Positions 9,560 to 35,342 of a DNA stretch of 39,539 bases are shown in pieces (position 1 is the first letter of the stretch; each line of letters begins with the position of its first letter). The position numbers and the translations under genes are program-made. Origin of the DNA: Desulfuromonas sp. (GTDB lineage: Bacteria; Desulfobacterota; Desulfuromonadia; Desulfuromonadales; UBA2294); the NCBI GenBank assembly GCA_002868925.1, contig PKTZ01000106.1, positions 1 through 39,539 of the forward strand, read 5' to 3'. The notes under the pieces were generated by a model. The model saw only the letters and a program-made list of their open reading frames with translations. It had not been told where the DNA came from and made no database searches.

Positions 9560-10189
9560 GTGATGAGATATTTCTGCCTGACAATCTGCCTTATTCTGCT
9601 GATAACCGGCCCGGTCCGAGCCGGCGAACTCGATGTTCTGCTCGACTCGCTTCGCGAAGTCGCTGCGACCACCGAGACCCTGTCGAGTCACTTTGTCCAG
9701 GAAAAACATCTCGCGATTTTTTCCGAGAAGCTGTTGTCGGAGGGACGGTTTTCCTACCGCAAGCCGGACCGGCTCCGCTGGGAGCTGCTGACGCCGTTCG
9801 CCTCCGGGTTTGTCCTGCGCGGCGACAGTGGTGAACGTTGGAATGGACTGAGCCGCGAGCGCGGACGCTTTTCGGTCGAGCGCGATCCGGTGATGGGGAT
9901 GGTCGCCCGGCAGCTGCTTGCCTGGGCCAGGGTCGATCTCGACTGGCTGCAGCAACGCTACCGCATGGAATTACTGCAAAATCGACCGCCCAAGCTGAGG
10001 CTGATTCCGCTTGATCCCGGCGAAGCCGGCTTTATCCGGCATCTCGAAATCACCTTTGCCGAAGATTTGCGTTATATCTCGACCGTGCTTTTACAGGAAG
10101 CCGGGGGCGACAAGACCCTGCTCCGTTTCAGCGAGGTCGAGCTTAACCGAGCATTGCCGGAGGAGACCTTCCGGGCACCGGAGTTTTAA
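9560..10189 (+). CDS. LolA-like outer membrane lipoprotein carrier
   Basis: A 209-aa secreted protein with a signal peptide (cleavage probably after VRA, residue 21), then a LolA-like body including SSHFVQEKHL and FSYRKPDRLRWELLTPF. LolA proteins carry lipids or lipoproteins across the periplasm. Variant LolA proteins next to an MMPL exporter are a standard part of aryl polyene clusters and are thought to help move the polyene lipid to the outer membrane. The track start is GTG at 9560; an ATG follows at 9563. It overlaps the exporter gene (TAATG). Confidence 0.85.
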   Translation: MMRYFCLTICLILLITGPVRAGELDVLLDSLREVAATTETLSSHFVQEKHLAIFSEKLLSEGRFSYRKPDRLRWELLTPFASGFVLRGDSGERWNGLSRERGRFSVERDPVMGMVARQLLAWARVDLDWLQQRYRMELLQNRPPKLRLIPLDPGEAGFIRHLEITFAEDLRYISTVLLQEAGGDKTLLRFSEVELNRALPEETFRAPEF

Positions 10190-12567
10190 TGAGACTGATC
10201 GCCGCAACATATGAGCGGCTCCGGCGTCGGCGGGCCGTGCTCACCTTGGCCCTGCTTTTGCTGCTGCTGGTCGGAGGCGGACTGCTCTCCCGCCTCGAAG
10301 TCGAGGAGAGTATCGTCGCCATGCTACCGGACGGCGACTCGCGGGTGGCGAGCGACTTCAAACTTCTGCAGCAGGCCCCGTTCGCACGCAAACTGGTCAT
10401 TCACCTCCGTTCCGACGAATCGGTTCCGGCGGACCGGCTCCATGCTGCAACCGACCAAATGCGGAATCTGCTGCCGCCCGATCTGTTCAATAATCTATTG
10501 AGTGGTCCGGGTGGGATCAACCCGGGCCGGCTATCGGCCGGGCTGATTGCCGCCATGCCGGCACTGCTCGACCAGAACGACCTGCAGGATCTGGAGCAGG
10601 AGCTGACCCCTGAGAAGATTGATCGGCAGGTGGCGACCGACCTGGCCCAGCTGCTGCAACCCCAAGGCGTCGCATTGAAGGAGAATATTCGGCGCGACCC
10701 GCTCGACCTGCTGCGCTTCGCCATGGCCAAGCTGCGCTACCTCAATCCGTTGCCCGGTGTCCGCATCGAACAGGGGCACTTTACCAGCGCCGACGGGCAC
10801 AGCACTCTTTTGCTCGCCGATACGCCGGTACAGATCACCGACGCGGTGGCCGGCCGGGAGCTGGTCGATGCCTTTGCTACGGCCCGTTTACAGCTGCCCG
10901 GAGGTGTCAACGCCGACCTGCTCAGCGGGCATCCTTACACCCTAGCCAATTCCGAGGCGATACAGGGTGACATGAGGATTGTGCTGTCTGTTTCCGGCAT
11001 CGGCATCTTCCTGCTCTTCGCCTTTTTCCTGCGGCGACTGCGGGCCCTGGCCGTCTACCTGCTGCCGCTATTCAGTATTTCTGCGGCGCTGGTTGTCACG
11101 TCGCTCTGGTACGGCCGGGTCTCGGGCATAACCATCGGCTTCGGCGCGGTGCTGCTCGGTATCACCATCGATTTCGGGCTGCATGTCTATTTTGCCCTGC
11201 AGCATGGACATGGTCAACGTGCGTACCTGCTGCAGGCCGTATCGAAGCCGGTCCTGTTCGGCGGCCTGACCACCCTGGCCGCATTTTCGGTACTGCTCAA
11301 TTCAGAGCTGCCGGGCCAGCGCCAGCTCGCTATTTTTGCCATTGCCGGCAGCATTTCCGCCCTGCTGCTTGCCCTCTTGGTCATGCCGCATTTTCTCGGT
11401 AAAAACGATACGATCGCCCGTACCGGATCGCTGACGAATATTAACCAGATCTATGTCCGGCAGCCGAAACTCCGCCGGGTTGTCATCCTGCTCTGGTTCG
11501 GACTCGCCCTGTTCGGTGCGATCCAGACCCAAAAACTTGGCATCAACGGTGAGCTGCGCCAGCTCAGCTATATCCCGAAACAGCTGCAGCAGGCAGAGAA
11601 CCGGTTGGCCGAGTCATGGGGGCGCATGCGCGACCGGGCCATGATCTTTACCGCCGCCGCAAATCGCGAAGAGGCCATAGCCGCCAACGACCAGATCTGG
11701 CAAATCCTCGACCAGCAACAGTTGCAGGGCGAAGCGGTCAGCCTGGCGCCGCTGTTGGCCGGCCAGAAGATCCAGAAACAGCGCCTCCACAACTGGAACG
11801 AATTCTGGACGAAGCACCGTGCTAAAACAGAAGAGTTGCTGCAGAAATCGGGGCAGAAATACGGCTTTTCGACAGTTGCCTTCCAACCCTTTTTCGACAC
11901 TCTTGAACGCTCGGCACAGATCATCGAGCCGGAAACCCTGACCGGCTGGGGGATGAACAGTCTCCTGGACAACCTGTTGCTCAAGGACGGGAACTCCTAC
12001 CGGCTGATTACCCTGGTGCCGGATCGTCCCGAACTGGTGACGCGCCTCGACGCCGAGCTCGCCAAAGTTCCGGGTGCGACCCTGGTCTCACAGGGGCGCT
12101 TCGGTCGAGAGCTGAGCCTCGAAGTCGCTGCCGATTTTGCCAAGTTTATTATTTCCGCCGGGATAGCGGTCCTGCTTTTGCTGATTGTTCTGTTCCGCCG
12201 TCTGCAGGATGTATTGCTTGCGCTGTTGCCGGTTTTGACCGGCCTGCTGGTGATGTTCGGCGGGATGAGCCTGGTCGGCCTGGACATGAACATGTTCAAT
12301 GTTATCGCCACCATCCTGATTATCGGGCTTGGTGTCGATTATGGAATTTTCATGGTCTGCCACAGCCGGCAGCAGGAGGAGACCGCTTCGACCAGGGCCG
12401 TTCTGGTCTCGGGCCTGACCACCCTGGTCGGATTCGGAGCGCTGGTCCTGGCCCGGCACCCGGCGTTGAACTCGATCGGCCTGACCGTTTTGCTCGGCAT
12501 CTCGGCCGCTGTACCGACCGCGGTTCTGGTTATCCCGGCCTTTCGCCCGAGGTGTAGCGATGCCTAG
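10189..12567 (+). CDS. MMPL/RND-family lipid exporter
   Basis: A 792-aa inner-membrane transporter with the two-fold RND layout: TM1 at about 16-34, a periplasmic domain, a bundle of helices at about 263-402, a second periplasmic domain, and a final bundle at about 645-790. Acidic residues in GITIDFGLH and GVDYGIF occupy the positions used for proton relay in MmpL-type proteins. MMPL proteins move lipids outward using the proton gradient. In aryl polyene clusters this exporter is paired with LolA-like and DUF3261 proteins, exactly as here, so it is the likely exporter of the finished pigment lipid. Confidence 0.9.
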   Translation: MRLIAATYERLRRRRAVLTLALLLLLLVGGGLLSRLEVEESIVAMLPDGDSRVASDFKLLQQAPFARKLVIHLRSDESVPADRLHAATDQMRNLLPPDLFNNLLSGPGGINPGRLSAGLIAAMPALLDQNDLQDLEQELTPEKIDRQVATDLAQLLQPQGVALKENIRRDPLDLLRFAMAKLRYLNPLPGVRIEQGHFTSADGHSTLLLADTPVQITDAVAGRELVDAFATARLQLPGGVNADLLSGHPYTLANSEAIQGDMRIVLSVSGIGIFLLFAFFLRRLRALAVYLLPLFSISAALVVTSLWYGRVSGITIGFGAVLLGITIDFGLHVYFALQHGHGQRAYLLQAVSKPVLFGGLTTLAAFSVLLNSELPGQRQLAIFAIAGSISALLLALLVMPHFLGKNDTIARTGSLTNINQIYVRQPKLRRVVILLWFGLALFGAIQTQKLGINGELRQLSYIPKQLQQAENRLAESWGRMRDRAMIFTAAANREEAIAANDQIWQILDQQQLQGEAVSLAPLLAGQKIQKQRLHNWNEFWTKHRAKTEELLQKSGQKYGFSTVAFQPFFDTLERSAQIIEPETLTGWGMNSLLDNLLLKDGNSYRLITLVPDRPELVTRLDAELAKVPGATLVSQGRFGRELSLEVAADFAKFIISAGIAVLLLLIVLFRRLQDVLLALLPVLTGLLVMFGGMSLVGLDMNMFNVIATILIIGLGVDYGIFMVCHSRQQEETASTRAVLVSGLTTLVGFGALVLARHPALNSIGLTVLLGISAAVPTAVLVIPAFRPRCSDA

Positions 12568-13228
12568 GGTGCTGATACTGTTCGTTGTCCTGCTGTCCCT
12601 CATGGCCTGTATGCCGGCGCCGCCGTCGCTGCAGCTGCCGCAGGATTGCCGGGCTCAGCAGAGCATAGAAAAGCTGCTGGCGACCGATTGGCTCGCAGGG
12701 GAGGAGGTGTGGCGCATCCGCCAAACCGCATTACTCGAGACCCGTTTTCGCAAGCTGGCGATGGAAGGATTTTTGCGGCTGGACCTGAAAACGGGTGAAG
12801 CCCGCCTGGTCGCGCTGAATGAAATCGGCCTGGTCCTGTTCGATCTGCAGGTGACGGCCGACTCCGAACAGCTCCACCGGGCTGTTCCGCCATTGGAGAA
12901 GCGCCGGGATCTGATGACAACGATCGCCAAGAGCCTGCGCCGGATTTTCCTGGTGCCGCGCCCGGCATTATCTGACCGGCTTGTGCCGCAGGAAAACGTC
13001 CAGTCCCTTTCGCGAATCAGCACCAACGGAAGCCAAAACTTCCTGTTCGATTGCTACGGTGATCTGCGTGAGAGCCGCTGGCAGGGCGAAGCCGGGAGCT
13101 GGTCGACGCACTACAATCACTACGACGAGCGGCAGAACGTGCGCTTGCCGGAAGAGATCATCCTGCACGACGAGGAGCAGGGGATCAGGCTGACACTCGA
13201 AATCAAAGAGGTCAAACCGGAATCATGA
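12560..13228 (+). CDS. DUF3261-type outer membrane lipoprotein
   Basis: A 222-aa predicted lipoprotein. The signal peptide ends in a lipobox, LMAC, with Cys17. The rest is rich in beta-prone sequence and fits the DUF3261 family found in aryl polyene clusters, although I assign it mainly from context and general pattern. It overlaps the exporter gene by 8 bases and the following dehydratase gene by 4. It probably acts at the outer membrane in placing the polyene lipid. Confidence 0.72.
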   Translation: MPRVLILFVVLLSLMACMPAPPSLQLPQDCRAQQSIEKLLATDWLAGEEVWRIRQTALLETRFRKLAMEGFLRLDLKTGEARLVALNEIGLVLFDLQVTADSEQLHRAVPPLEKRRDLMTTIAKSLRRIFLVPRPALSDRLVPQENVQSLSRISTNGSQNFLFDCYGDLRESRWQGEAGSWSTHYNHYDERQNVRLPEEIILHDEEQGIRLTLEIKEVKPES

Positions 13229-13605
13229 ACAGAATGCGAAAAGCGATAATTGCGTCGGCCGTCGGGCCGGTTGAACTGGCTGAAGGGAGTGGCAAACAGA
13301 GCTTCAGCTTCGACGAGACGTTTCTCGGCTTTGCCGGCCACTTCCCCGGCTACCCGATTCTGCCGGGAGTGCTGCAGAACCTGCTTGCCCAGGTCGTGTC
13401 CGAGCAGGTCATCTCCGATCCGGTAGAGTTCAGGGCGATTCAGCGGGCTAAGTTCAGCCGTCAACTCCGGCCGGGCGACCAGATCGAGGTCGAGGTCATC
13501 TGTCGCGACAAGGAAGGCGCCCTGTACTGTGCGACCAAAATGCGGGTTGGTAGCGAGGAGGCATCGAGCTTTACCCTGATCCTCGAGAAAAAGGCGACAA
13601 CATGA
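13225..13605 (+). CDS. FabZ/FabA-like hotdog protein
   Basis: A 126-aa hotdog protein with the dehydratase signature GHFPGYPILPGVL and the catalytic-type His39. In FabZ the next helix supplies a catalytic Glu; here it reads LQNLLAQ and shows no acidic residue at that place. It may therefore be a weak or non-catalytic partner, or use another residue. Aryl polyene clusters normally encode two dehydratase-like proteins, so it may pair with the one at 9135. Starts with ATGA overlapping the previous stop. Confidence 0.78.
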   Translation: MNRMRKAIIASAVGPVELAEGSGKQSFSFDETFLGFAGHFPGYPILPGVLQNLLAQVVSEQVISDPVEFRAIQRAKFSRQLRPGDQIEVEVICRDKEGALYCATKMRVGSEEASSFTLILEKKATT

Positions 13606-14063
13606 GAAAGCAGTATTTCAAACAAGAAGAGGGCGCACCCGAACCGCTCCGTTGCACGGTCGAACGGGTCGCCCGGTTCGAAGAGGTCGACGCTCTCGGC
13701 ATCGTCTGGCACGGTCGTTACCCGAGCTATTTCGAGGATGGCCGGGTCCTGCTCGGCGAAAAGTACGGGATCGGTTACCTCGATTTATACCGACAGGAAA
13801 TTATCGCCCCGATCAAACAGATGCATGTCGATTATCAGAGGCCGCTGCAATTCAGCGATCCTTTCACTATCGAGGCGATCCTGCATTGGTCGGACGCGGT
13901 GCGGCTCAACCATGAATTTATCCTGCGCAATGCCGCCGGCGAGATTACGACCACCGGCTACACGGTGCAGCTGCTGATGGATCCCGAGCACAATGTCCTG
14001 ATGGTGCCGCCGCCGTTTTACCAGGAATTTCGTGAACGCTGGCAGGCAGGAGAGTTGACTTGA
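13602..14063 (+). CDS. 4HBT/YbgC-like acyl thioesterase
   Basis: A 153-aa hotdog thioesterase. The N-terminal block VARFEEVDALGIVWHGRYPSYFEDGR matches the 4-hydroxybenzoyl-CoA thioesterase signature, with Asp30, His37 and Tyr40 in the usual places. It would hydrolyse an acyl thioester, either releasing the chain or clearing stalled intermediates. Aryl polyene clusters commonly encode one. It overlaps both neighbours by 4 bases. Confidence 0.85.
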   Translation: MRKQYFKQEEGAPEPLRCTVERVARFEEVDALGIVWHGRYPSYFEDGRVLLGEKYGIGYLDLYRQEIIAPIKQMHVDYQRPLQFSDPFTIEAILHWSDAVRLNHEFILRNAAGEITTTGYTVQLLMDPEHNVLMVPPPFYQEFRERWQAGELT

Positions 14064-15181
14064 AAAAGGTTTTGATCAGCAAGGTCGGCTGTGAGACTGC
14101 CCTCGGCTCCGGCCCTGAGAAACTCTGGCTAGAACTGCTCGCCGGTCGCAGCGGAATCAAACCGCTGACCCGCTTCAGCTGCGAGAACTACGTTTCAAAC
14201 CTCGCCGCCGGCATCGACGACCTCGCGATACCGGCCGGAAGCTCGCGCCACGATGATTTGCTCGATCGTGTCGCCGATCAGGTCGGCCCGATACCTGCCG
14301 ATAGCCGCCTGCTGGTCGCCTCGACCAAGGGGGAGATCGACCGCCTGCAGACCGCCTGTCGTCACGATGAGCCGGTACCGGCGTCGGCCCTGTTCGAACC
14401 ACTGCTCGCGAAAATTTCCCGGCGCTTCGATCTGATCGATCACGGCACCAACATCAATGCCGCCTGTGCCTCCTCGACCATTGCCATTGCCCGCGGCGCC
14501 GCGATGATCGCCCATGGTCAGGCCGAGTCGGTCCTGGTCTACGCCGCCGATCTGCTCAGCGAATTTGTTTTCTCCGGTTTTTCTGCACTGCAGGCGCTCT
14601 CCCCGACGCCGGCCCGACCCTTCGATGCACAACGGCAGGGTTTGAACCTCGGCGAGGCGGGGGCGGCGTTGCTGCTGACAAATGAAAAACGGGCCGGAGA
14701 TTCTCCGTTGGCACAGGTCGCCGGCTGGGGCGCGGCCAACGACGCCCACCATGTCACAGCCCCGGCCCGGGACGGCAGCGGCCTGATCCTGGCCTGCCGC
14801 GAGGCGATGCAGCGGGCCGGTATCGACCCGGATCAAGTGGCAGCGATCAATGCCCACGGCACCGGCACCCCGTATAACGATGCCATGGAGCTGACCGCGT
14901 TTGACTCCCTGTTCGGCAAAAAGATGCCGCCGCTACACGGCGTCAAGGGGAGCCTCGGCCACACCCTCGGTGCCGCCGCCGCACTCGAGACAATTGTCGG
15001 CGGTTTCGCCCTTACCGCAAAAAAGATCCCCGGTACGGTCGGTTGCACCGATCCGGAAGAGGTCGGTATGGGACGAATCGGAACGGCAACCCAGTCTATC
15101 GACGGAGATTACCTGCTCACCACCAATTCCGGTTTCGGCGGCATCAACGGAGCCCTGGTTCTGCAGGGGGCGGCATCATGA
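14060..15181 (+). CDS. Beta-ketoacyl-ACP synthase
   Basis: A compact 373-aa ketosynthase with all condensing residues: Cys136 in NAACASST, His266 in NAHGTGTPYND, and His301 in GSLGHTLGAA. It starts with TTG at 14060, overlapping the thioesterase stop (TTGA), and overlaps the next gene by 4 bases. The next gene is a ketosynthase-like protein without the nucleophile, so these two look like a ketosynthase/partner pair. The HGTGTPYND form differs from the HAT forms at 1259 and 3940 and resembles the ketosynthase at 22359. Confidence 0.9.
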   Translation: MKKVLISKVGCETALGSGPEKLWLELLAGRSGIKPLTRFSCENYVSNLAAGIDDLAIPAGSSRHDDLLDRVADQVGPIPADSRLLVASTKGEIDRLQTACRHDEPVPASALFEPLLAKISRRFDLIDHGTNINAACASSTIAIARGAAMIAHGQAESVLVYAADLLSEFVFSGFSALQALSPTPARPFDAQRQGLNLGEAGAALLLTNEKRAGDSPLAQVAGWGAANDAHHVTAPARDGSGLILACREAMQRAGIDPDQVAAINAHGTGTPYNDAMELTAFDSLFGKKMPPLHGVKGSLGHTLGAAAALETIVGGFALTAKKIPGTVGCTDPEEVGMGRIGTATQSIDGDYLLTTNSGFGGINGALVLQGAAS

Positions 15182-15885
15182 AGGCATTGATCAACGGTAT
15201 CGGCTGGATCACCCCGGCCGGCTTCGGCCAGGGGCATGCTGCGAACGGACAACCGTTGCTTGCCGGCGAGCTTGAAATCCCGACGCGCAAGCAGATCTTC
15301 GCCGGTATCGACCGACGTTTCGGCCGACTCGATGACTTCTCCCGGATCGGCCTTGGCGCCGCGACCTTCTGTCTGCGTGACGCCGGCGCCGAAGAATGGA
15401 GTGAAAAAAGACGGGTCGGGATTGTTGCCGCCAGTCGTTACGGCTGCCTGCGGACCGATCTCGACTACCTGGAGACGATGCTGTCGGAGCAGGGGAAACT
15501 GGCCAGCCCCAATATCTTTGCCTACACCCTGCCGAACTGTTTTCTCGGCGAGGCGGCCCTCCGTTTCGGCCTGACCGGCAACAGCATGATCATCAACCGT
15601 CACGACCCCGATCGGGTCACGGCGATCCGGATCGCCCTCGAGGAACTCAGCTGGACCGACCAGGCCGGAATCCTCGCCGGAATCGTCGATCTTACGCCGC
15701 CGCCGGAGCTGGCGGCCGACGACGATCTGCCCGGCAGTCTCTTCCTGCTCCTTGAGCGAGGGCCTCGACCCAGGATCGAGCCGTACGGGGAGCTTGTGCT
15801 GCAAGGCGATCAACTGATTTTCAATGGCAAGGAAATGTCCGACCTGAAAGAGCTGGTCGCTTCCTGCCTGAGGATAGAGTCCTGA
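15178..15885 (+). CDS. Truncated ketosynthase-like protein lacking catalytic residues
   Basis: A 235-aa protein that begins like a ketosynthase (INGIGWITPAGFG; later RVGIVAASRYG) but stops at about the middle of the fold. Where a ketosynthase has its Cys it reads IINRHDPDRVTAI, so no nucleophile is present, and the part with both His residues is absent. The start is ATG at 15178, overlapping the ketosynthase stop; the upstream extension in the ORF track is a shadow of the previous gene. A conserved role as a short partner of the 14060 ketosynthase is likelier than decay, given the clean overlap and intact frame. It could also be the equivalent of a small ketosynthase-like protein found in aryl polyene clusters. 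Confidence 0.75.
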   Translation: MKALINGIGWITPAGFGQGHAANGQPLLAGELEIPTRKQIFAGIDRRFGRLDDFSRIGLGAATFCLRDAGAEEWSEKRRVGIVAASRYGCLRTDLDYLETMLSEQGKLASPNIFAYTLPNCFLGEAALRFGLTGNSMIINRHDPDRVTAIRIALEELSWTDQAGILAGIVDLTPPPELAADDDLPGSLFLLLERGPRPRIEPYGELVLQGDQLIFNGKEMSDLKELVASCLRIES

Positions 15886-15933: not shown

Positions 15934-17193
15934 ATGAACATGGAACTGATTTATCCGCGCTGGCCGAAGCTCGATCGCCAGACCGAGTTTCACCTGCCGC
16001 CGCACGGCCCGGTCGTTTTTGCCGCGGCGTTGCCCGAAGAGGTTAAAGTCAACTTTACCGACGAGAACCTGCAGGCGGTCAACTTCGATGCGAGCTGCGA
16101 CCTCGTCGCCATCTCGACGATGCTGACCTCGCAGCTGCCGCGCGCCTTCGAGATCGCCCGCGAGTTTCGCGCGCGCGGCAAGACGGTGATCTTCGGCGGC
16201 ATTTCGACCATGCTGCACGCCGAGGAGGTGCAGCAGCACGCCGATTCCGTCTTCCTCGGCGAGGTCGAGGGGCGCATCGGAGAAGTACTCGAGGATTTCA
16301 AGCGGGGCGAGCTCAAGCCGGTCTATAACTACATGCACAACCATCCCGACATCAACCTGGTCGGGACCGCCCGGCGCGACATCCTCAACCGCGAACTCTA
16401 CAACTATCGCGGCGTCCAGATGCTCGATCTCGTCCACGCCTCGCGCGGCTGCAAGTTCGACTGTTTCCCCTGCTGTACCGGTTTTCTCGGAGGCAAGGCG
16501 TTTCGCCCCCGGCCGATCGACAAGGTCATCGCCGAGATGGAGGCGATCCAGAACAACCGCATGTTCATCGTCGATAACTCGCTCGCCCAGGACAAACAGT
16601 GGTTGATCGACCTGTTCACGGCGATGGCGCCGCTGAAGAAGAAGTGGGTCTCGCATCCGATCCTCGATGATGACGAGGTTCTGAAGCTGGCGGCCGACGC
16701 CGGCGCCTGGTATGTCTACCAGGCGGTTTTCGATACCTCGGACACTATCCGCAACCGGATCAAGCGGCTCAAGGAGTACGGCATCGGCATCGAGGGGACG
16801 ATTATCCTCGGCACCGACGATCAGAGCGAGGACGACATCAAGCGCTTGGTCGACTTCCTGCTCGAGGTCGAGCTCGATGTTGCCGAGTTCACGATCATGA
16901 CGCCGTTCCCGCATTCACCGATCCGGAGCCAGCTCGAGAGGGAGGGCCGCATCCTCTCGAACGACTGGCTCAACTACACCGCCGACAAGGTTGTTTTTCA
17001 GCCGAAACAGATGACGCCGGATAAGCTGCAGGAAATGTACTACTACGCCTGGGATACCTTCAACGCCGACAGCGGCCACGCCCTGAAGATGGGCAAGTTG
17101 TTCGAGCAGGTTATCCGCCGTGAGATCGAGGACGGCACCTATCGCCGTTATGAGCCGCGAAAACGGCGTCAATTCAAAAAGGAGAGCGCATGA
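15934..17193 (+). CDS. B12-binding-type radical SAM protein
   Basis: A 419-aa enzyme. The N-terminal 150 residues resemble the cobalamin-binding domain of this class (LVAISTML, VIFGGIST, FLGEVEG). The radical SAM domain begins with HASRGCKFDCFPCC, the CX3CX2C iron-sulfur motif (Cys173, 177, 180). Such proteins cleave S-adenosylmethionine and often methylate or rearrange unreactive carbons. It has a good ribosome-binding site (AAAGGAG) and follows a 48-base gap, the largest in this part of the operon. It is the first of three consecutive genes of this class. Substrate unknown; a lipid-like chain on ACP is inferred from the surroundings. Confidence 0.87.
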   Translation: MNMELIYPRWPKLDRQTEFHLPPHGPVVFAAALPEEVKVNFTDENLQAVNFDASCDLVAISTMLTSQLPRAFEIAREFRARGKTVIFGGISTMLHAEEVQQHADSVFLGEVEGRIGEVLEDFKRGELKPVYNYMHNHPDINLVGTARRDILNRELYNYRGVQMLDLVHASRGCKFDCFPCCTGFLGGKAFRPRPIDKVIAEMEAIQNNRMFIVDNSLAQDKQWLIDLFTAMAPLKKKWVSHPILDDDEVLKLAADAGAWYVYQAVFDTSDTIRNRIKRLKEYGIGIEGTIILGTDDQSEDDIKRLVDFLLEVELDVAEFTIMTPFPHSPIRSQLEREGRILSNDWLNYTADKVVFQPKQMTPDKLQEMYYYAWDTFNADSGHALKMGKLFEQVIRREIEDGTYRRYEPRKRRQFKKESA

Positions 17194-18545
17194 GTCGCGT
17201 CTTTTTCATCTCCAGTAATACCACCATCGAACCCTACCCGGTCTACCCCCTGGGCATGGCGGTGGTCTCAGGCGCGGTCAAGGCGGCCGGACACATGGTC
17301 GAGCAGTACGACTGCCTGGTCAACGGAGATGACATCGACACGCTGCGGGCCCGGATTGCCGACTTTGCCCCCGACCTGATCTCGATTTCGCTGCGTAACA
17401 TCGACAACGTCGACTCCTTCTCCGGCGAGAACGCCTGGTACCTGGCGCGAGTCAAAACCCTGGTCGCCGATATCCGCAAGTTCTGTACCGCGCCGATCGT
17501 CGTCGGCGGCCCGGCGTTAACCATCATGCCTGAACAGATCGCCACCTACCTCGAGGTCGACCACGCCATCATCGGCGAAGGGGAGGTTGCCCTGCCGCAG
17601 CTGGTCACTAACCTCTCTTCCGGCAAACAGGTGCCGCAGGTGATCACCCGGAGCGCACCGCTGGCCGGCAACGATTTCAGTACGCCGTTGTTCGACCCCG
17701 AGCTGGCTCCGTTCTACCTCGAACAGAGCGGGATGCTCAACCTGCAGACCAAGCGGGGCTGCCCCTATCGCTGCACCTACTGTTCCTACCCGCATCTCGA
17801 GGGGAACCGCTTCCGGCGCCGCGACCCGGAACTGGTTGTCGGCGAACTGAAACGGTTGAAGGATAAGCACGGGGTAGAGCGGGTCTTTTTTACCGATTCG
17901 GTTTTCAACGATCCGCAGGGAACATACCTCAAGCTCTGCGAAGAGATGATCCGCCACGACGTCGGTATCGGCTGGTCGGCCTATTTCAGGCCGCAGGGCT
18001 TCGGGCGGGAAGAGCTGCAGCTGATGAAACGGGCCGGTCTTTACGCCCTCGAACTCGGCCCCGACGCCGGCTGCGACCGGACCCTGAACGGACTCGACAA
18101 GAAGCTGACTTTTGCCGAGGTTATTGCGGTTAACGAGGCCTGTCTCGCCGAACAGCTGGCGGCAGCCCATTTCGTCATTTTCGGTGGCCCGGAGGAAGAT
18201 GACGAAACTCTGGCCGAAGGCCTCGACAATATGGACAGGCTCGGCGCCTCCGTCGTCTTCGCCTTCTCCGGTATCCGCATCCATCCCGACTCGCCGCTGC
18301 ATCAGCGGGCCATCGACGATGGGATCATCACCGCCGAGACCTCTCTGCTCAAGCCGGTCTACTACTTCTCACCGCGGATCGACCGGGAGAAGATGGAAGC
18401 GACCATCGAGGCCCGCTTTCACGGCCGGAAAAACCGGATCTTTCCGCCGTCGGAAGGGACGAAGCGCCTCGAAATCATGAAGAATTTCGGCTACCGTGGA
18501 CTGATGTGGAATCGGCTGATCCGCTTCCCGAAAGAAGAGTTGTAA
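17190..18545 (+). CDS. B12-binding-type radical SAM protein
   Basis: A 451-aa enzyme with the same layout as its neighbour: an N-terminal cobalamin-binding-like domain (PIVVGGPALTIMPE, HAIIGEGE) and a radical SAM domain starting at TKRGCPYRCTYCSYP, with Cys191, 195 and 198 for the 4Fe-4S cluster. It overlaps the preceding radical SAM gene by 4 bases. Gene clusters proposed for ladderane lipids contain radical SAM proteins of this kind among ketosynthases and desaturase-like flavoproteins. Ring formation or methylation of the chain is possible; nothing in the sequence decides between them. Confidence 0.88.
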   Translation: MSRVFFISSNTTIEPYPVYPLGMAVVSGAVKAAGHMVEQYDCLVNGDDIDTLRARIADFAPDLISISLRNIDNVDSFSGENAWYLARVKTLVADIRKFCTAPIVVGGPALTIMPEQIATYLEVDHAIIGEGEVALPQLVTNLSSGKQVPQVITRSAPLAGNDFSTPLFDPELAPFYLEQSGMLNLQTKRGCPYRCTYCSYPHLEGNRFRRRDPELVVGELKRLKDKHGVERVFFTDSVFNDPQGTYLKLCEEMIRHDVGIGWSAYFRPQGFGREELQLMKRAGLYALELGPDAGCDRTLNGLDKKLTFAEVIAVNEACLAEQLAAAHFVIFGGPEEDDETLAEGLDNMDRLGASVVFAFSGIRIHPDSPLHQRAIDDGIITAETSLLKPVYYFSPRIDREKMEATIEARFHGRKNRIFPPSEGTKRLEIMKNFGYRGLMWNRLIRFPKEEL

Positions 18546-18560
18546 CGGACAGAACAAGGT

Positions 18561-20009
18561 ATGGCGAAACTGAACGACAAAAATATCCTGCTGGTCCATC
18601 CGCTCGGCTACCAGGTCGATGCTGCAGCCAATGATATCTCGCGCAAGGCGAATATCATGCCGCCGCTCGGACTGGCGAGCATCGCCGCCTGTCTCGACGC
18701 CGCGGGTTTCAGCAGCTTTATCCTCGATTGCTACGCCCACCCCGATGCCGACGGACGGCTGCTCGAACTACTGCGTGAACATCGACCCGGCTTGATCGGC
18801 TTCAGCTGCACGACCGCCAGTTTCCATGACAGCGTCCGCCTGGCCGGCCTGGCCAAGCAGGAGCTGCCGGAAATCAGGACCGCTTTCGGCGGTGCCCATG
18901 TCTCGGCGTTGCAGGAGAAGGTTCTCGATTTCTCGCCGCTGATCGACTACGCCGTTATCGGCGAGGGGGAGCAGACGATGATCGAGCTGGCGCAGCTCGC
19001 CGGTGAAACGCCGCGCGACATCGGCGGGGTCGTCTGGCACGATAGCGATGGGGCAATCGTCAACAACGGTTACCGCAGCGACGCCCTGATCCTCGACGAG
19101 CTGCCGTTCCCGGCCTACGAGAAACTGGCCGGATACCCCGACGCCTACAAACTACCGATCTTCAACTACCCGAAGGCCCCGAACACAAGCTGTATCTCCA
19201 GCCGCGGCTGTCCCTACAGCTGCAGCTATTGCGATCGCAGCGTCTTCCAGCGCAGCTTCCGCTTCAACTCGGCCGAGTACCTCTACGCCCACCTCGAGTA
19301 TCTAAAAAATCGTTTCGGTATCCGTCACATCAACTTTTACGATGATCAGTTCACCTTCCAGCGCAAGCGGGTCGAGCAGTTCTGTCGGATGATGATCGAT
19401 AAGCCGCTCGGCATGACCTTCAACTGCGCCGTGCGGGCCGAACATGTCGACCGTGAGCTGTTGCAGCTGATGAAGGCGGCCGGCTGCTGGATGGTCAGCC
19501 TCGGCATCGAGAGCGGCGACGAACAGCTGCTGGCCCAGCACCGGCAGAACGCCAACCTCGACCTGCTCGCCGATACCATCCGCACGATCAAGGCGTGTGG
19601 CATCCGGACCAAGGGGCTGCTGATGATGGGCCTGCCGGGTGAATCCGAACTGTCGATCCGGCGCAGCATGGATTATGTCTATTCGCTGCCGATCGACGAC
19701 TTCAACCTGGCCAAGTTCACGCCGTTCCCCGGATCGCCGATCTACGAGAACATCCACGAGCTCGGCAGCTTCGATGAAGACTGGCCGAAGATGGACTGCA
19801 TGCATTTCCAGTTCGTGCCGCATGGCATGGAACAGGAGCAGCTCGAGAAGCTGTTCATCGAATTCTACAAGAACCATTTCAAGCGGAACCGGGTGCTGCT
19901 CGGCTACGTCAGCATGCTCTGGAAGTCGCCCGACAGCTGGCGCCGTTTCATTGCCAGCGCCGGCCAGTTCCTCCGTTTTGCCGTCAGTAACAAGCGCTAT
20001 GGCAGTTGA
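18561..20009 (+). CDS. B12-binding-type radical SAM protein
   Basis: A 482-aa enzyme, third in the row. The cobalamin-binding-like half has AFGGAHVSALQE and YAVIGEGEQT; the radical SAM half starts with SSRGCPYSCSYCDRS (Cys217, 221, 224). A C-terminal extension of about 80 residues follows the barrel (FTPFPGSPIYENI onward), as in BchE-like enzymes. Its end overlaps the glycosyltransferase gene by 11 bases. Reaction unknown; the operon position suggests it modifies the same lipid as its two neighbours. Confidence 0.88.
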   Translation: MAKLNDKNILLVHPLGYQVDAAANDISRKANIMPPLGLASIAACLDAAGFSSFILDCYAHPDADGRLLELLREHRPGLIGFSCTTASFHDSVRLAGLAKQELPEIRTAFGGAHVSALQEKVLDFSPLIDYAVIGEGEQTMIELAQLAGETPRDIGGVVWHDSDGAIVNNGYRSDALILDELPFPAYEKLAGYPDAYKLPIFNYPKAPNTSCISSRGCPYSCSYCDRSVFQRSFRFNSAEYLYAHLEYLKNRFGIRHINFYDDQFTFQRKRVEQFCRMMIDKPLGMTFNCAVRAEHVDRELLQLMKAAGCWMVSLGIESGDEQLLAQHRQNANLDLLADTIRTIKACGIRTKGLLMMGLPGESELSIRRSMDYVYSLPIDDFNLAKFTPFPGSPIYENIHELGSFDEDWPKMDCMHFQFVPHGMEQEQLEKLFIEFYKNHFKRNRVLLGYVSMLWKSPDSWRRFIASAGQFLRFAVSNKRYGS

Positions 20010-21174
20010 ACGATCCGACATATTCGTCGCCGTGCCGGTCTACAACCATGCGGCGACCCTGCGCCAGGTGATCGCGGGCATCCTCGAACAGCACGACCGG
20101 GTTCTGGTCGTTGACGACGGCAGCAGCGATGGCGCTGTCGAGGCGATCGCCGGCCTGCCGGTTGAGCTGATCCGGCACCCGCGCAACCTCGGCAAGGGGG
20201 CGGCCCTGCAAAGTGCTGCACGGTGGGGGCTTGAACAGGGCTGTAGCCACATGATTACGATCGACGCCGATGGCCAGCATGCCCCGGCTGACCTGTCCCG
20301 ATTCTTTGCCGAGATCGAGAAGCACCCGCAGGCGCTGATTGTCGGCCACCGCGACTTCGACCAGGCTTCGATCCCCGGTTCGTCCCGCTTCGGCCGGCAG
20401 TTCTCCAACTTCTGGCTGCGCGTCCAGACCGGGTGTCGGCTCAAGGACAGTCAGAGCGGGTTTCGCGCATACCCGCTGATCATCTTCGAGCATCTCAACT
20501 TCTGGTGCCGCCGCTATAACTTCGAGGTCGAAATCCTGGTCCGCTCGGCCTGGGCCGGGGTCGAGCTGCGCGACGTCGATATCTCGGTGTACTATCCGCC
20601 GGGCGAGGAGCGGATCTCGCACTTCCACGGCTTTCTCGACAACTGGCGCCTGACCCTGCTCAACACGCATCTGACCGGGCGTTCGATCGTCCCCTGGCCG
20701 CACCGCAAGATCATCGAACGTGAAGACGAGGGGAAGCTGAAAACCGTCTCGGTGATCCATCCGCTGCGTTCGATCCGGCAGCTGTTGCAGGAAAACAGCA
20801 CCCCGCCACGGCTCGCCGTGGCGGCAGGAACCGGCGTGCTGCTCGGCACCCTGCCACTGATCTTCTGCCACACCATCATCATCCTGATGGTCTGTGGTTT
20901 CTTCCGGCTCAACAAGGTCGCCGCGATCAGCAGCAGCCAGCTCTGCATGCCGCCGATCGTGCCGGCGCTCTGTATCGAGCTCGGATATTTCATGCGCCAT
21001 GGCGAGTGGTTGACCGAGCTGTCATTGCAGACCCTCGGCTATCAGGCGTTGGAGCGGATCTACGAATGGCTGCTCGGTTCACTGGTCCTGGCCCCGGTCC
21101 TGGCCGGTGCGGTCGGATTGCTAACCCTGTTGCTGGCACAACTGGTGCAGAAAAAAGATGTCGAGACGATCTGA
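19999..21174 (+). CDS. GT2 glycosyltransferase fused to DUF2062
   Basis: A 391-aa two-domain protein from ATG 19999; the upstream part in the ORF track is a shadow of the radical SAM gene. The first domain is a family 2 glycosyltransferase with VAVPVYNHAATL, VLVVDDGSSDG, and the metal-binding DADGQH (89-94), resembling dolichol-phosphate-mannose-synthase-type enzymes. The second domain (from about 255) is a membrane DUF2062 region, RLAVAAGTGVLLGTLPL onward, with two to three helices. It may transfer a sugar to the lipid product. It overlaps the following acyltransferase by 17 bases; GT2 and LpxL-like genes are also neighbours in many aryl polyene clusters. Confidence 0.87.
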   Translation: MAVERSDIFVAVPVYNHAATLRQVIAGILEQHDRVLVVDDGSSDGAVEAIAGLPVELIRHPRNLGKGAALQSAARWGLEQGCSHMITIDADGQHAPADLSRFFAEIEKHPQALIVGHRDFDQASIPGSSRFGRQFSNFWLRVQTGCRLKDSQSGFRAYPLIIFEHLNFWCRRYNFEVEILVRSAWAGVELRDVDISVYYPPGEERISHFHGFLDNWRLTLLNTHLTGRSIVPWPHRKIIEREDEGKLKTVSVIHPLRSIRQLLQENSTPPRLAVAAGTGVLLGTLPLIFCHTIIILMVCGFFRLNKVAAISSSQLCMPPIVPALCIELGYFMRHGEWLTELSLQTLGYQALERIYEWLLGSLVLAPVLAGAVGLLTLLLAQLVQKKDVETI

Positions 21175-22105
21175 TCATAAATCCGGCTGGAGCAGCCGGA
21201 GTATCGGCAGTAACTGGCAGCACCAGTTTTTTTACCTGGCGATTAAGATTGGCGGCCGTCGTGCAGCCTATTTTGTGCTATATTTCGTAGTCGCTTATTA
21301 TGCTCTGTTCAGCCGCCTGGCGCGGGAGCGAGCAGGCCACTATGTTTCCCGACGCTTCCCGGAAGCTCGCGGGCTGAAGCGGCTCTGGCACGGCTACCGC
21401 ATGATCCTCAACTTTGGCATGGTGCTGATCGACCGGGCGGTGGTCGGCATCCTCGGGCCCGATTCGTTCGAGGTCAGCCTGGCCGGACGTGAACAGCTAC
21501 TGAAAATCCGGGACGAGAATCGGGGCATGATCCTGATGACGGCCCATGTCGGTTGCTGGCAGGTCGCGATGTCGGTCCTCGAATTTCTCGAGCGGCCGGT
21601 GTACATGCTGATGCGACAGGAGGACGGTGATATCGACCGGCATTACTTCGAGCATGCCGGCATCGAATGTCCCTATCGGGTGATCGACCCGACCGGCTAC
21701 CTCGGCGGCACCCTCGAAATGCTCGGGGTGCTCAAGCAGGGGCAGGTCGTCAGTGTCATGGGCGACCGCCTGCTCGGCAGCGACAAGAGCAGCTGCCCGG
21801 TCGATTTTCTCGGAGCCACGGCAACGGTTCCGTTCAGTGCCTACAAGATCGCTTCGGCGAGCGGCGCGCCGATCGTGATATTCTTTACCCGCAAAAGCGG
21901 GCCAAACAGTTACGAGGTTGAAATTGCCCGGGTGATCCGGGTGCCGGAACTGCCGGGTCGGGAGTCGTCAACGTTCACCCCCTACGCCCAGGAATTTGCC
22001 GAGGCGCTGGAGGAGGTCAGCCGGAAGCACCCGTACCAGTTTTATAACTTTCACGATATGTGGGCGGTCGAGCCGCCATCAATAAAGCAAGAAGGGCAGG
22101 AGTAA
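21158..22105 (+). CDS. LpxL/HtrB-like lysophospholipid acyltransferase
   Basis: A 315-aa membrane protein of the lipid A acyltransferase family, with a hydrophobic segment at about 35-52 and the active block ILMTAHVGCWQVA. The family's HX4(D/E) motif reads HX4Q here (His130, Gln135). It would acylate a hydroxyl on the glycolipid made by the preceding glycosyltransferase. The start is ATG 21158 inside the GT gene; a later start is possible because the first 20 residues are not family-like. Confidence 0.82.
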   Translation: MSRRSDHKSGWSSRSIGSNWQHQFFYLAIKIGGRRAAYFVLYFVVAYYALFSRLARERAGHYVSRRFPEARGLKRLWHGYRMILNFGMVLIDRAVVGILGPDSFEVSLAGREQLLKIRDENRGMILMTAHVGCWQVAMSVLEFLERPVYMLMRQEDGDIDRHYFEHAGIECPYRVIDPTGYLGGTLEMLGVLKQGQVVSVMGDRLLGSDKSSCPVDFLGATATVPFSAYKIASASGAPIVIFFTRKSGPNSYEVEIARVIRVPELPGRESSTFTPYAQEFAEALEEVSRKHPYQFYNFHDMWAVEPPSIKQEGQE

Positions 22106-22107
22106 CG

Positions 22108-22362
22108 ATGGAGATCAAGGAAAAACTGAAGCAGGTACTGATAGAAGACTTGAACCTTGAGGATGTCACCCCGGATGAGATCGGTAACGACGAGCCGCTG
22201 TTCGGCGAGGGTCTCGGTCTCGATTCGCTCGACGCGGTCGAGCTCGTCGTTGTTGTACAGAAGCACTTCGGTGTCGAAATCAAGGATATGGACGAGGGCC
22301 GCCCGGCCCTGCAGTCGATCAACACCCTCGCCGCCTTTATCGAGGAAAAATCGAACGGATGA
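22108..22362 (+). CDS. Acyl carrier protein
   Basis: An acidic 84-aa ACP with GLGLDSLDAVE; Ser40 carries phosphopantetheine. The ORF track begins at 22060, inside the acyltransferase gene; ATG 22108 with GGCAGGAG upstream is the natural start and gives the usual ACP length. It overlaps the ketosynthase at 22359 by 4 bases. It differs clearly in sequence from the ACP at 5169 and presumably serves the second ketosynthase pair. Confidence 0.94.
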   Translation: MEIKEKLKQVLIEDLNLEDVTPDEIGNDEPLFGEGLGLDSLDAVELVVVVQKHFGVEIKDMDEGRPALQSINTLAAFIEEKSNG

Positions 22363-23546
22363 ACCAACCGGTTGCCATAACCGGCCTCGGTTGTCTCTGC
22401 GGCGCCGGCATGAACTTGGCCGAATGCATGGAGAGCATGTTCCGCGGCGTGCGCAAGCCGCGGCCGCCGTTCCGCTTTTCGACCGATCACCCGGTCAGCT
22501 ACCCGGTGCTCGAGCTGCGCGACGAGTTCAAATTACCGCTCGATGACCAGGAAAAGGTCTATGCCCGAACCAGCCAGCTCGCTCTGGCCGCCGCCCTCGA
22601 GGCGCTGGCCGACGCCGGCTGGGACGAGGCGTCGCTACGCGGAAAAAAGGTTGGGGTCTGCATCGGCACTACGGTCGGCTGCGCCCTCAATTGCGACGAC
22701 TTCTACCGCGCCTACAAGGAAGGCGACGACCCGGAGATGGATGTCATCGAGCGATTTCTGCGGAGCAACCCGGCATCGGTCATCGCCCGCCAGCTCAAGC
22801 TCGACGGTCCGAACCAGACCGTAGTCAACGCCTGCTCATCCGGCACCGATGCGATCGGACTTGGCGCTTCATGGATCCACTCCGGTGCCTGCGACATTGT
22901 CATCGCCGGCGGCGCCGACGAGCTCTCGCGTGTCACCTATGCCGGCTTCAGCTCGCTGATGATCACCGACACCGAACCGTGCAAGCCGTTCGATGTTAAC
23001 CGCAAGGGACTCAACCTCGGCGAAGGTGCCGGAATCATGGTATTGGAAAGTGATGCAATCCGGGGCGACAGGAAGGCGTGGGGCTTTGTTCGCGGTTACG
23101 GTTCCGCCTGCGATGCTTATCACTTGACGGCACCGCGGCCGGATGGTGCCGGTCTCAAGCAGGCGATGGGCGAGGCGTTTGCCGCTGCCGGTCTCACACC
23201 GGAACAGATCGCTTTCGTCAACGCCCACGGCACCGGAACCCCGGACAATGACAAGGTCGAGAGCGGTGTTCTCGCCGAAATGCTCCCCGGTGTTCCGTTC
23301 CTTTCGACCAAGGGCTACACCGGCCATACCCTCGGCGCTGCCGGCGGTATCGAGGCGGTCTTCACCGTCGAGTCGTTGCGTCGCGGCAAACTGCCGGCCA
23401 ATATCGGCTATGCCGATGCCGACCCGGAGATCAAAGGCACCCCGGTGACCGAAAACACCGAGATTGATGGGGAATACGCGTTGTCGGAATCACTCGCCTT
23501 CGGCGGCAACAACGCGGTCCTGATTCTCGGCAAGGGAGACGATTGA
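22359..23546 (+). CDS. Beta-ketoacyl-ACP synthase (KS of a KS-CLF-like pair)
   Basis: A 395-aa ketosynthase with Cys159 in NACSSGTD, His290 in NAHGTGTPDND, and His323 in YTGHTLGAAGG, so all catalytic residues are present. It directly precedes a ketosynthase-like gene in which the Cys is Gln, the arrangement of a ketosynthase/chain-length-factor heterodimer as described for aryl polyene synthesis in E. coli. It starts within the ACP gene (ATGA). It probably catalyses the repeated elongation of the polyene chain. Confidence 0.91.
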   Translation: MNQPVAITGLGCLCGAGMNLAECMESMFRGVRKPRPPFRFSTDHPVSYPVLELRDEFKLPLDDQEKVYARTSQLALAAALEALADAGWDEASLRGKKVGVCIGTTVGCALNCDDFYRAYKEGDDPEMDVIERFLRSNPASVIARQLKLDGPNQTVVNACSSGTDAIGLGASWIHSGACDIVIAGGADELSRVTYAGFSSLMITDTEPCKPFDVNRKGLNLGEGAGIMVLESDAIRGDRKAWGFVRGYGSACDAYHLTAPRPDGAGLKQAMGEAFAAAGLTPEQIAFVNAHGTGTPDNDKVESGVLAEMLPGVPFLSTKGYTGHTLGAAGGIEAVFTVESLRRGKLPANIGYADADPEIKGTPVTENTEIDGEYALSESLAFGGNNAVLILGKGDD

Positions 23547-23547
23547 T

Positions 23548-24612
23548 ATGCGGATGGCGATTCAGAGCATCGGAATCTCCGGAGGCTTCGGTCAAGGCGT
23601 CGACTCCCTGCAGCGGGCCCTTGTCGCCGGTGAGGTTGAACCGCAGACCGGCGAGGTCGAGCGCAACGGAACGGTCGACAGCTTCCCCTGCTACCGCGCC
23701 GCCATCGATGGACTCGACGAATTTTTCCCGAAGCGGGCCCTGCGCCGGATCGATCACTATTCGAAGATGACCCTGTACGGGGCCAGCCTAGCCCTGAAGG
23801 AGGCCGGTCTGCTCGAAGCCGATCGTTCGCGCATGGGCGTGATAATCGCCACCGGTTACGGCGCTCTGAAGACGACCTTCGATTTTCTCGATTCCTACCT
23901 TGATTTCGGCTATTCGTGTAGCTCGCCGACCCATTTTTCGAACTCGGTCCACAACGCTGCGGCGGCCCATGTCTCGATGCAGTTCAAGGCGACGGCACCG
24001 AGCCTGACCGTGACCCAGTTCGAGATGTCGGTCGCTTCGGCCCTGCTCACCGCCAGGCACTGGCTGGCCGAGGGACGGGTCGATCAGGTTTTGTTCGGTG
24101 CGACCGACGAATACTGCGACGTCCTGCGCTACTGCCGCAAACGCTTCTTTTGCGACGGCGAACAGGGCCCGATGGCACCGTTCAATTTCGAGCGGCAAAG
24201 CGCCGTGGTCGGAGAAGGCGCCGCCTTTTTCATCCTGACCCGGGACGAGCAGCAGGCAAGTTATGGCTATATCGACGCGGTCACTCTCGGCAACCATGTC
24301 GCATCTCCGCTCGAATTGCCGGCGGACGATTTCGTTATCGCCGGCGCCGACGGACACCGCGATTGCGGCCAGTGGTACGCTGAAACGATCGGCAGCCTGC
24401 CCGCGTCCGCCTACTCACCGCTTTACGGGAGTTTCCCGGCTGCGGCCGGCTTCGACCTGGCGGTCGCGGCGTTGACCTTGAAAGAAGGATGTTACTTTAC
24501 GGTACCGGACAACGCCGGTTCGACGACGACTCCTGAAGAGGCGCCCGCAAAGATCTCCTGCCTGAAGTTCGGACCGGGAGGCGATTATGGCCTGATCCGC
24601 CTGTCACGCTGA
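23548..24612 (+). CDS. Chain-length-factor-like ketosynthase homologue
   Basis: A 354-aa ketosynthase-fold protein without condensing activity. At the Cys position it reads SLTVTQFEMSVASAL, with Gln157 in place of Cys; Cys-to-Gln is the hallmark of chain length factors. The HGTGT and GHT histidine motifs are also missing. Structural landmarks of the fold remain (MGVIIATGYGALKT, VVGEGAAFFIL). It begins one base after the KS stop, so the two are surely co-expressed. It probably pairs with that KS to set chain length. Confidence 0.85.
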   Translation: MRMAIQSIGISGGFGQGVDSLQRALVAGEVEPQTGEVERNGTVDSFPCYRAAIDGLDEFFPKRALRRIDHYSKMTLYGASLALKEAGLLEADRSRMGVIIATGYGALKTTFDFLDSYLDFGYSCSSPTHFSNSVHNAAAAHVSMQFKATAPSLTVTQFEMSVASALLTARHWLAEGRVDQVLFGATDEYCDVLRYCRKRFFCDGEQGPMAPFNFERQSAVVGEGAAFFILTRDEQQASYGYIDAVTLGNHVASPLELPADDFVIAGADGHRDCGQWYAETIGSLPASAYSPLYGSFPAAAGFDLAVAALTLKEGCYFTVPDNAGSTTTPEEAPAKISCLKFGPGGDYGLIRLSR

Positions 24613-24619
24613 GGTCGAT

Positions 24620-25204
24620 ATGCGACCCGGCTTGATTTGCATTCTCTGCGGTGCGTTGCTCGTCACCCTTACTCCGGCGATGGCCCGGGCCGAGGCAGAT
24701 CCGGGCGGAGAGTCCGTTTCATACCGGCCGAATCGCTACGGCGTCGGGCTGCTGGCCGGGAAGGCCTATGACCCCGAACACTTCGGTCTGGTTATACTGC
24801 AGGGTCAGATGCTGGTCGATTACGATCGGATTGTCTGGCACCGGGCACCCGAGGAACTTTATCTCAAGTTCGAAGCGAATCTCGGCATCACCACCGACGG
24901 TCGTGACAAAGGGTTAGCCGCGGTCAACATGCTGGCCCTTTTCTATCTGGACGCCCCCGATGCGCGGCGCTGGAGACCGTTTCTCGAAGCGGGAATCGGC
25001 CTGATCTATACTGAGTACCGGGTTGAGGGTCAGGGACTGTATTTGAACTTTAATCCCCAGGCCGGTGCCGGCGTTGAATTCCGCCGGGATAACGGGCAGG
25101 CGCTCTCAATCGCATTGCGTCTGCACCATTTGTCAAACGGCAACCTGTACAAGGATAACCGGGGCGTCAATTCCGCGTTCCTGATGCTCGGTTACTTATT
25201 CTGA
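24620..25204 (+). CDS. PagL-like outer membrane lipid A deacylase family protein
   Basis: A 194-aa protein with a signal peptide (cleavage probably after ARA, residue 24) and a small beta-barrel pattern ending in aromatic GYLF. The C-terminal HHLSNGN fits the PagL catalytic block (His170, Ser172). In PagL a Glu lies 12 residues after the Ser; here that position is Asn184. Many acyloxyacyl hydrolase family members may share this change, so activity is uncertain. It may trim acyl chains of a lipid at the outer membrane; its presence inside the operon suggests the substrate is the cluster product or the lipid A around it. Confidence 0.75.
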   Translation: MRPGLICILCGALLVTLTPAMARAEADPGGESVSYRPNRYGVGLLAGKAYDPEHFGLVILQGQMLVDYDRIVWHRAPEELYLKFEANLGITTDGRDKGLAAVNMLALFYLDAPDARRWRPFLEAGIGLIYTEYRVEGQGLYLNFNPQAGAGVEFRRDNGQALSIALRLHHLSNGNLYKDNRGVNSAFLMLGYLF

Positions 25205-25206
25205 CG

Positions 25207-25650
25207 ATGAAGAAAAAAGATGTCCCACAACAGGGCGGCCTGAACGCCGGCTGCCGCGAAATCAACTATGCGGTTGATGACGACGGGCACTATACCCTCG
25301 AATCGAGTGTCGGCTGGGAGGCGAAGAACATCGCCCTGCGCCAGGCCTGGGAAGAGATCATCGACCAGCTGCATCGTGTTCTGGACGAAGTCAGGGCCGG
25401 GGCCAAAAGTCCTCTTGCCTACCATATGGTCAAGAACCAGATGAACCCGATCCTGCTCGCCCGCTACTCCGGGATCGCCCGCTGGCGGGTCAAACGTCAC
25501 TTCAAGCCGGCAGTTTTTGCCAAATTGAAACAAAGCGATCTGCAACCTTACGCCGATCTGTTTAAAATTTCAGTGGAGGAGTTGAAACAGGTTCCGGAAA
25601 AACCCGACCTGTCGATTGAGGAAATCGATCCGTCAGGAGGATCAGCATGA
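25207..25650 (+). CDS. Conserved-looking small protein with possible HTH-like segment
   Basis: I do not recognise a family with certainty. It is 147 aa, charged and soluble, with no signal peptide. The segment LLARYSGIARWRVKRHFKPAVFAKLKQSDLQPYADLF looks like a helix-turn-helix of the kind that reads a short conserved motif, followed by ISVEELKQ. It starts 2 bases after the PagL-like gene and overlaps the BtrH_N gene by 4, so it belongs to that group. It could be an operon-borne regulator or a small partner of the next protein. Confidence 0.6.
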   Translation: MKKKDVPQQGGLNAGCREINYAVDDDGHYTLESSVGWEAKNIALRQAWEEIIDQLHRVLDEVRAGAKSPLAYHMVKNQMNPILLARYSGIARWRVKRHFKPAVFAKLKQSDLQPYADLFKISVEELKQVPEKPDLSIEEIDPSGGSA

Positions 25651-27429: not shown

Positions 27430-27436
27430 TACGATC

Positions 27437-28753: not shown

Positions 28754-28770
28754 ACCGACTGGAGTTGAAA

Positions 28771-31067: not shown

Positions 31068-31075
31068 GCTCTCTA

Positions 31076-35320: not shown

Positions 35321-35342
35321 GGTCGGGCCTTAACGAATATTG

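Follow-up and report, generated by a model that had tools for sequence, protein, structure and literature searches.

What do three cobalamin (B12)-type radical S-adenosylmethionine (SAM) enzymes do when their genes stand in a row inside a polyene gene cluster? The question is raised by contig PKTZ01000106.1 of Desulfuromonas sp. (GenBank assembly GCA_002868925.1), which was analyzed over its full length of 39,539 nucleotides and is called the window here. The original prediction had described three CX3CX2C proteins with domains resembling the cobalamin-binding one, encoded head to tail with junctions of 4 to 15 bases, and had suggested that each may catalyze a different step. We call them rSAM1, rSAM2 and rSAM3. 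We find that rSAM1 and rSAM2 constitute a gene pair that is conserved across many phyla, and we give an even chance to the reading in which a polyene bound to acyl carrier protein (ACP) is the substrate of two enzymes, rSAM2 as a cobalamin-dependent C-methylase and rSAM1 as a radical enzyme that transfers no methyl group, and in which rSAM3 tailors the product.

The three open reading frames are intact, lie on the same strand and begin with ATG. rSAM1 and rSAM2 overlap by 4 bases, and 15 bases separate rSAM2 from rSAM3. The CX3CX2C motif reads CKFDCFPC in rSAM1, CPYRCTYC in rSAM2 and CPYSCSYC in rSAM3, and a Rossmann domain of the cobalamin type accompanies it in each protein, as judged by predicted fold for rSAM1 and rSAM2 and by Pfam for rSAM3. 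Reading frames, Pfam matches and AlphaFold2 models thus confirm the arrangement as it had been described. The proteins share only 22–24% identity pairwise and are therefore not recent copies of each other, as had also been proposed. Nor is their order due to chance, because it recurs in other genomes.

A profile scan of genome contigs with an rSAM2 alignment yielded 73 named loci from Desulfobacterota, Lentisphaerota, Verrucomicrobiota, Planctomycetota (Phycisphaerales), Nitrospinota, Hydrogenedentes, Acidobacteriota and others. rSAM1 directly adjoins rSAM2 in 58 of the 65 loci with room for it, and among the seven others, L125, L145 and L155 do have rSAM1 in the locus, where the adjacency rule missed it. 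For rSAM3, adjacency was seen in 49 of 66 loci. Genes for a dehydratase, LolA, an MMPL protein, a thioesterase, a ketosynthase (KS), a chain-length factor (CLF) and a GT2 glycosyltransferase accompany the pair in 24–27 of 31 long loci, and an ammonia-lyase gene in 12 of them. The rSAM2 family (TIGR04072) and the ladderane-type clusters were already known; the rSAM1-rSAM2 pair and the rSAM1 family are new here. The complete set of three genes is present in the cultured Desulfuromusa kysingii DSM 7343 (L092) and Geothermobacter hydrogeniphilus HR-1 (L115). Typical cluster genes also occur in metagenome-assembled genomes (MAGs) labelled Neptunomonas and Bacillota (L110, L125), possibly through binning errors.

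rSAM2 passes the Pfam cut-offs for B12-binding (E 2e-16) and Radical_SAM (E 7e-17), and it belongs to NCBIfam TIGR04072 (rSAM_ladder_B12, lipid biosynthesis), scoring 661.8 bits against a cut-off of 360 over positions 1–443 of 443. Its best match by profile is TsrM (182 bits), which is also the fold closest to the rSAM2 model (predicted local distance difference test, pLDDT, 94; template modeling score, TM, 0.85; E 5e-28). However, rSAM2 lies far from the TsrM family itself (TIGR04428, 127 bits, cut-off 500). TsrM methylates C2 of tryptophan. Its Arg69 sits beneath the cobalt and destabilizes methylcobalamin so that a weak nucleophile can attack it, and its Glu273 ligates the unique iron and keeps SAM off the cluster (PMC8992657). 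In the profile alignment R69 of rSAM2 coincides with TsrM Arg69, and arginine occupies this position in 56 of 56 rSAM2 sequences; the Glu273 position holds V or I in all 56. SAM should therefore be able to reach the cluster, and the methyl group could be transferred by a radical or by a polar route. Judging from alignment and model, rSAM2 probably combines the cobalamin pocket of TsrM with a normal SAM site, and methylation is plausible chiefly for this enzyme. An RN-D motif is not claimed here as a BzaD trait, since the supposed BzaD sequences score higher with TIGR04072.

rSAM1 belongs to no named family. The B12-binding and Radical_SAM Pfam models match it only below their cut-offs (E 6e-6 and 3e-5), but its AlphaFold2 model comprises a complete Rossmann domain and radical-SAM barrel (pLDDT 92), with which Foldseek retrieves other enzymes of the B12 radical SAM type (E 3e-18 for AprD4). 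The best match by both profile and fold (TM 0.78) is AprD4, a radical SAM diol dehydratase (PMC5461906), so that rSAM1 most resembles a non-methylating enzyme in its sequence profile and predicted structure. However, identity to AprD4 is only 16–17%, and the score with the AprD4 family NF033070 is 27.8 bits against a cut-off of 500. Nearly all aligned rSAM1 orthologues are about 60–92% identical, with three at 45–59%, and across 297 Desulfobacterota genomes the orthologues extend down to 469 bits, the next family beginning at 266 bits. Their neighbors are KS/CLF, LolA, FabG or ammonia-lyase-like genes, except at L185, where the contig end is reached, and at L187, where the lipid genes lie farther out in genome G334. 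The rSAM1 tree interleaves phyla, a pattern whose bearing on transfer is limited by the ranks given by submitters and by the binning of MAGs.

A further distinction is found two residues past the conserved strand-3 serine, a position that corresponds to Asn186 in OxsB and Arg69 in TsrM (PMC13331322). The residue is methionine (57 of 61) or leucine (4 of 61) in rSAM1 and threonine in 51 of 52 rSAM3 sequences; in these two proteins the lower-axial position was assigned by alignment. The difference at this presumed lower-axial position (M63, R69 and T84) supports three different chemistries. The suggestion of different steps also draws support from the separate families, the differing distributions, and the nearest solved structures, which differ between rSAM1 and rSAM2.

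The window is a single contig of a 2.57 Mb genome that is 88% complete, and the closest named relatives of the host are Desulfuromonas and other Desulfuromonadales. The host encodes CobS, which makes its use of cobamides plausible. Around the three genes lies an aryl-polyene-like cluster of about 33 genes, running from 514 to 32368, whose synteny is kept in about 20 genomes of the host's order. Its genes include the following.

514–1245 (+), FabG-type ketoreductase
1262–2473 (+), FabF-type ketosynthase (Pfam scan)
2477–3949 (+), phytoene-dehydrogenase-like amine oxidoreductase (PF01593)
3940–5172 (+), ketosynthase
5169–5423 (+), ACP with LDSL motif, conserved in syntenic clusters
5436–6242 (+), PlsC-type acyltransferase (Pfam scan)
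6242–7549 (+), phenylacetyl-CoA-ligase-like (PaaK-like) AMP-binding enzyme (Pfam scan)
7546–9135 (+), ammonia-lyase for aromatic amino acids, probably specific for tyrosine (motifs RSH and NQDVVSM; HutH has NQEDHVSM in place of the latter)
9135–9557 (+), probable dehydratase, from position and synteny (no Pfam match)
9560–10189 (+), LolA-like carrier
10189–12567 (+), MMPL-family membrane exporter (Pfam scan)
12560–13228 (+), lipoprotein at the place held by DUF3261 in aryl-polyene clusters (no Pfam match)
13225–13605 (+), FabA/ApeI-like dehydratase
13602–14063 (+), 4HBT-type thioesterase
14060–15181 (+), ketosynthase
15178–15885 (+), short CLF-like ketosynthase homologue
15934–17193 (+), rSAM1, B12-type radical SAM protein whose highly conserved family has no name (419 aa)
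17190–18545 (+), rSAM2, TIGR04072 'lipid biosynthesis B12-binding/radical SAM protein' (451 aa)
18561–20009 (+), rSAM3, HpnJ/BchE-like B12-type radical SAM protein, an optional third member (482 aa)
19996–21174 (+), GT2 glycosyltransferase with DUF2062 (Pfam scan)
21158–22105 (+), lipid A acyltransferase-like protein (Pfam scan)
22108–22362 (+), ACP with DSL motif, read from sequence
22359–23546 (+), ketosynthase
23548–24612 (+), CLF-like partner
24620–25204 (+), PagL-like outer-membrane deacylase (Pfam scan)
25647–26651 (+), BtrH_N/DUF4872 protein (Pfam scan)
26662–28753 (+), ABC exporter (ATPase 26662–27429, permease 27437–28753)
28765–29037 (+), ACP, conserved in syntenic clusters
29922–31079 (−), StlD/DarB-family ketosynthase (594 bits, cut-off 450)
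31076–32368 (−), rSAM4, HpnR-like B12-type radical SAM protein (its gene overlaps that of the StlD/DarB ketosynthase)

With the aryl polyene cluster of E. coli and the flexirubin cluster of Chitinophaga pinensis this set shares KS/CLF, ketoreductase, dehydratase, ACP, thioesterase, LolA, exporter, acyltransferase and glycosyltransferase genes, the ammonia-lyase motifs of FlxA and a DarB-like enzyme. However, the radical SAM module stands in place of their class-I methyltransferase: the original prediction was right that no SAM methyltransferase is seen, as the Pfam scans turned up none of class I in the cluster genes they covered. ApeB methylates aryl polyenes (PMC8253772) and flexirubin takes up label from methionine (PMC3992019), and rSAM1, rSAM2 and rSAM3 might be sequential C-methylases of the polyene that replace the missing enzyme, since methylation is what most known B12-radical SAM enzymes carry out (PMC11659888). 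We regard this as distinctly unlikely given the resemblance of rSAM1 to the non-methylase AprD4 and the best scores of rSAM3, which are to HpnJ and BchE rather than to methylases; BchE forms a ring (PMC13331322). In addition, carriers that lack an ammonia-lyase keep the pair, so methylation of an aryl head cannot be what the pair generally does, unless these clusters draw on a different aryl starter.

The location inside a polyene operon had been stated correctly but incompletely. The cluster is not an ordinary aryl-polyene operon carrying an unusual insertion; it is of the known ladderane-type lipid kind. In the anammox bacterium Kuenenia, Rattray et al. (2009) described clustered genes for radical SAM, phytoene-dehydrogenase-like, phenylacetyl-CoA-ligase-like, glycosyltransferase and membrane proteins; the synteny with Desulfotalea was striking, and Geobacter and Pelobacter had comparable clusters (PMC2649909). 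A study of the Cariaco Basin reported antiSMASH 'ladderane' clusters of unknown function in many phyla (PMC9902471). The window shares with such clusters its radical SAM, phytoene-dehydrogenase-like, PaaK-like ligase, glycosyltransferase and MMPL genes and its several ketosynthases with CLF-like partners; the likeness to the anammox clusters was judged by published gene content. It is set apart by the head-to-tail run of three radical SAM genes, by the additional one that adjoins the gene for a DarB-like ketosynthase, and by a gene resembling those for tyrosine ammonia-lyases, whereas the class-I methyltransferases of the anammox clusters have no counterpart among the genes scanned.

The pair might accordingly perform core ladderane-type chemistry (desaturation or radical cyclization), as proposed for anammox bacteria, and yield a cyclized or cyclobutane lipid. 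The membership of rSAM2 in TIGR04072 and the name of that family, the retention of the pair across phyla, and the gene types shared with anammox bacteria and Desulfotalea, including many FabF, are in keeping with this idea. Nevertheless, Desulfotalea made no ladderanes despite its syntenic cluster (PMC2649909), none were detected when anammox candidate genes were expressed in E. coli (PMC4790861), and Arg69 and the TsrM fold of rSAM2 point to methyl transfer. We therefore consider cyclization unlikely.

The ammonia-lyase bears on the substrate. The protein encoded at 7546–9135 combines motif 1 of the histidine ammonia-lyase type with motif 2 of the tyrosine ammonia-lyase type, a mixture also present in FlxA, an enzyme of flexirubin synthesis with proven tyrosine ammonia-lyase activity (PMC3992019). 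Histidine ammonia-lyase activity was rejected for it because motif 2 is not of the HutH type; in genomes G037 and G048 the ammonia-lyase homologues elsewhere carry the HutH motif, and only HutH is found there. No ammonia-lyase was found in ten pair carriers that were searched whole (G014, G338, G263, G306, G250, G294, G286, G071, G188, G334). Since several carriers are without a tyrosine ammonia-lyase, the substrate of rSAM1 and rSAM2 is not tied to the aryl starter that such an enzyme would supply, and the pair should act on a substrate that all clusters share; an ACP-bound polyene is the simplest candidate. The enzymes could instead be responsible for forming or altering the starter unit or a resorcinol partner, in view of the nearby ammonia-lyase, ligase and DarB-like ketosynthase and the pairing of rSAM4 with DarB. 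This appears improbable, as clusters without the ammonia-lyase and ligase retain the rSAM1-rSAM2 pair, and neither DarB nor rSAM4 occurs within the 40 kb read in G041 and in G051.

rSAM3 passes the Pfam cut-offs (B12-binding E 1e-24, Radical_SAM E 2e-22). Its top NCBIfam scores, both below cut-off, are 183.6 of 578 for HpnJ (TIGR03471) and 171.8 of 481 for BchE (TIGR02026). Orthologues mostly adjoin rSAM2 or GT2, and an rSAM3 gene parted from rSAM2 often still adjoins GT2. The expectation that close homologues keep to lipid clusters held for rSAM1 and rSAM2 wherever the flank was long enough, and only in part for rSAM3, whose second-tier relatives (46–50% identity) can stand alone amid unrelated genes. 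In hopanoid synthesis the cyclitol ether of bacteriohopanetetrol requires HpnI, HpnK and HpnJ (PMC5462960).

The fourth B12-type radical SAM gene, rSAM4 (31076–32368, minus strand), had been missed by the original prediction. It scores 189.3 of 650 with HpnR (TIGR04367), below the cut-off, and the adjoining ketosynthase falls within the parent subfamily NF005293 but short of the resorcinol exception NF053539 (502 of 550). The rSAM4-StlD/DarB gene pair (29922–32368) recurs, for example in G001, G007, G015, G016, G021, G028, G037 and G250, and it could replace the DarA aromatase step anaerobically.

For the scheme given at the outset, we infer the chemistry and the product from what is directly observed, namely gene structure, rSAM2 family, conserved pair, predicted folds and diagnostic residues. 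The KS/CLF, ketoreductase, dehydratase and ACP set would assemble an ACP-bound polyene. rSAM2 would hold cobalamin base-off, with Arg69 shielding its lower face, and methylate an sp2 carbon of the polyene chain or its head. rSAM1 would act on the same chain by isomerization, dehydration or C-C bond formation on its AprD4-like scaffold. rSAM3 may be an accessory tailoring enzyme, perhaps acting on a sugar from the neighboring GT2 as HpnJ does with HpnI in hopanoids, after which LolA, MMPL, the acyltransferases and the ABC exporter would place the lipid in the outer membrane.

Several points weigh against this scheme. We know of no product or activity for any of the four radical SAM enzymes, and their hidden Markov model scores to characterized equivalogs are all far below cut-off. 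What rSAM2 has in common with TsrM could be the way it handles the cofactor, not methylation. Nor does a cobalamin-type domain necessarily bind cobalamin, and AprD4, the nearest structure to rSAM1, is a dehydratase. The head-group role of rSAM3 comes from its neighborhood, and GT2 is also found without rSAM3.

It is possible, though we lean against it, that rSAM1 founds an undescribed family that, with its TsrM-like partner, modifies ACP-bound polyenes by novel anaerobic chemistry common to many phyla and to the anammox ladderane clusters. If so, a culturable Desulfuromusa or Geothermobacter would be a model for the unsolved ladderane chemistry. To our knowledge, no enzyme of the ladderane-type clusters has had its function proven in the years since 2009, and anammox bacteria are not obtainable in pure culture. 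Two radical SAM genes that stay together across many phyla, a TsrM pocket without the radical-blocking residue, and cultured carriers open the ladderane-type question to experiment.

Some minor observations concern the flanks and homologues of the run. Relative to window positions 15934–25650, the locus in G002 (L063) is 89% identical in rSAM1, 53–68% in rSAM2, rSAM3, GT2 and the acyltransferase (LPLAT), and 75% in the next ketosynthase, a drop that suggests segment exchange between clusters. The idea that rSAM2, rSAM3, GT2 and LPLAT form one co-evolving block was rejected, as pairwise-distance correlations gave no separate block. In-frame stops were flagged in some homologues of rSAM1, rSAM2 and rSAM3, and selenocysteine was considered and dropped; two of the rSAM3 homologues (L234, L235) were read out, and their stops are ordinary gene ends. 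Beyond the cluster, from 33710 to 39348, a TolC-like outer membrane efflux protein gene is followed by OmpA-like and HlyD-like genes, as read by eye, in a type I secretion-like operon that is apparently distinct from the lipid cluster.

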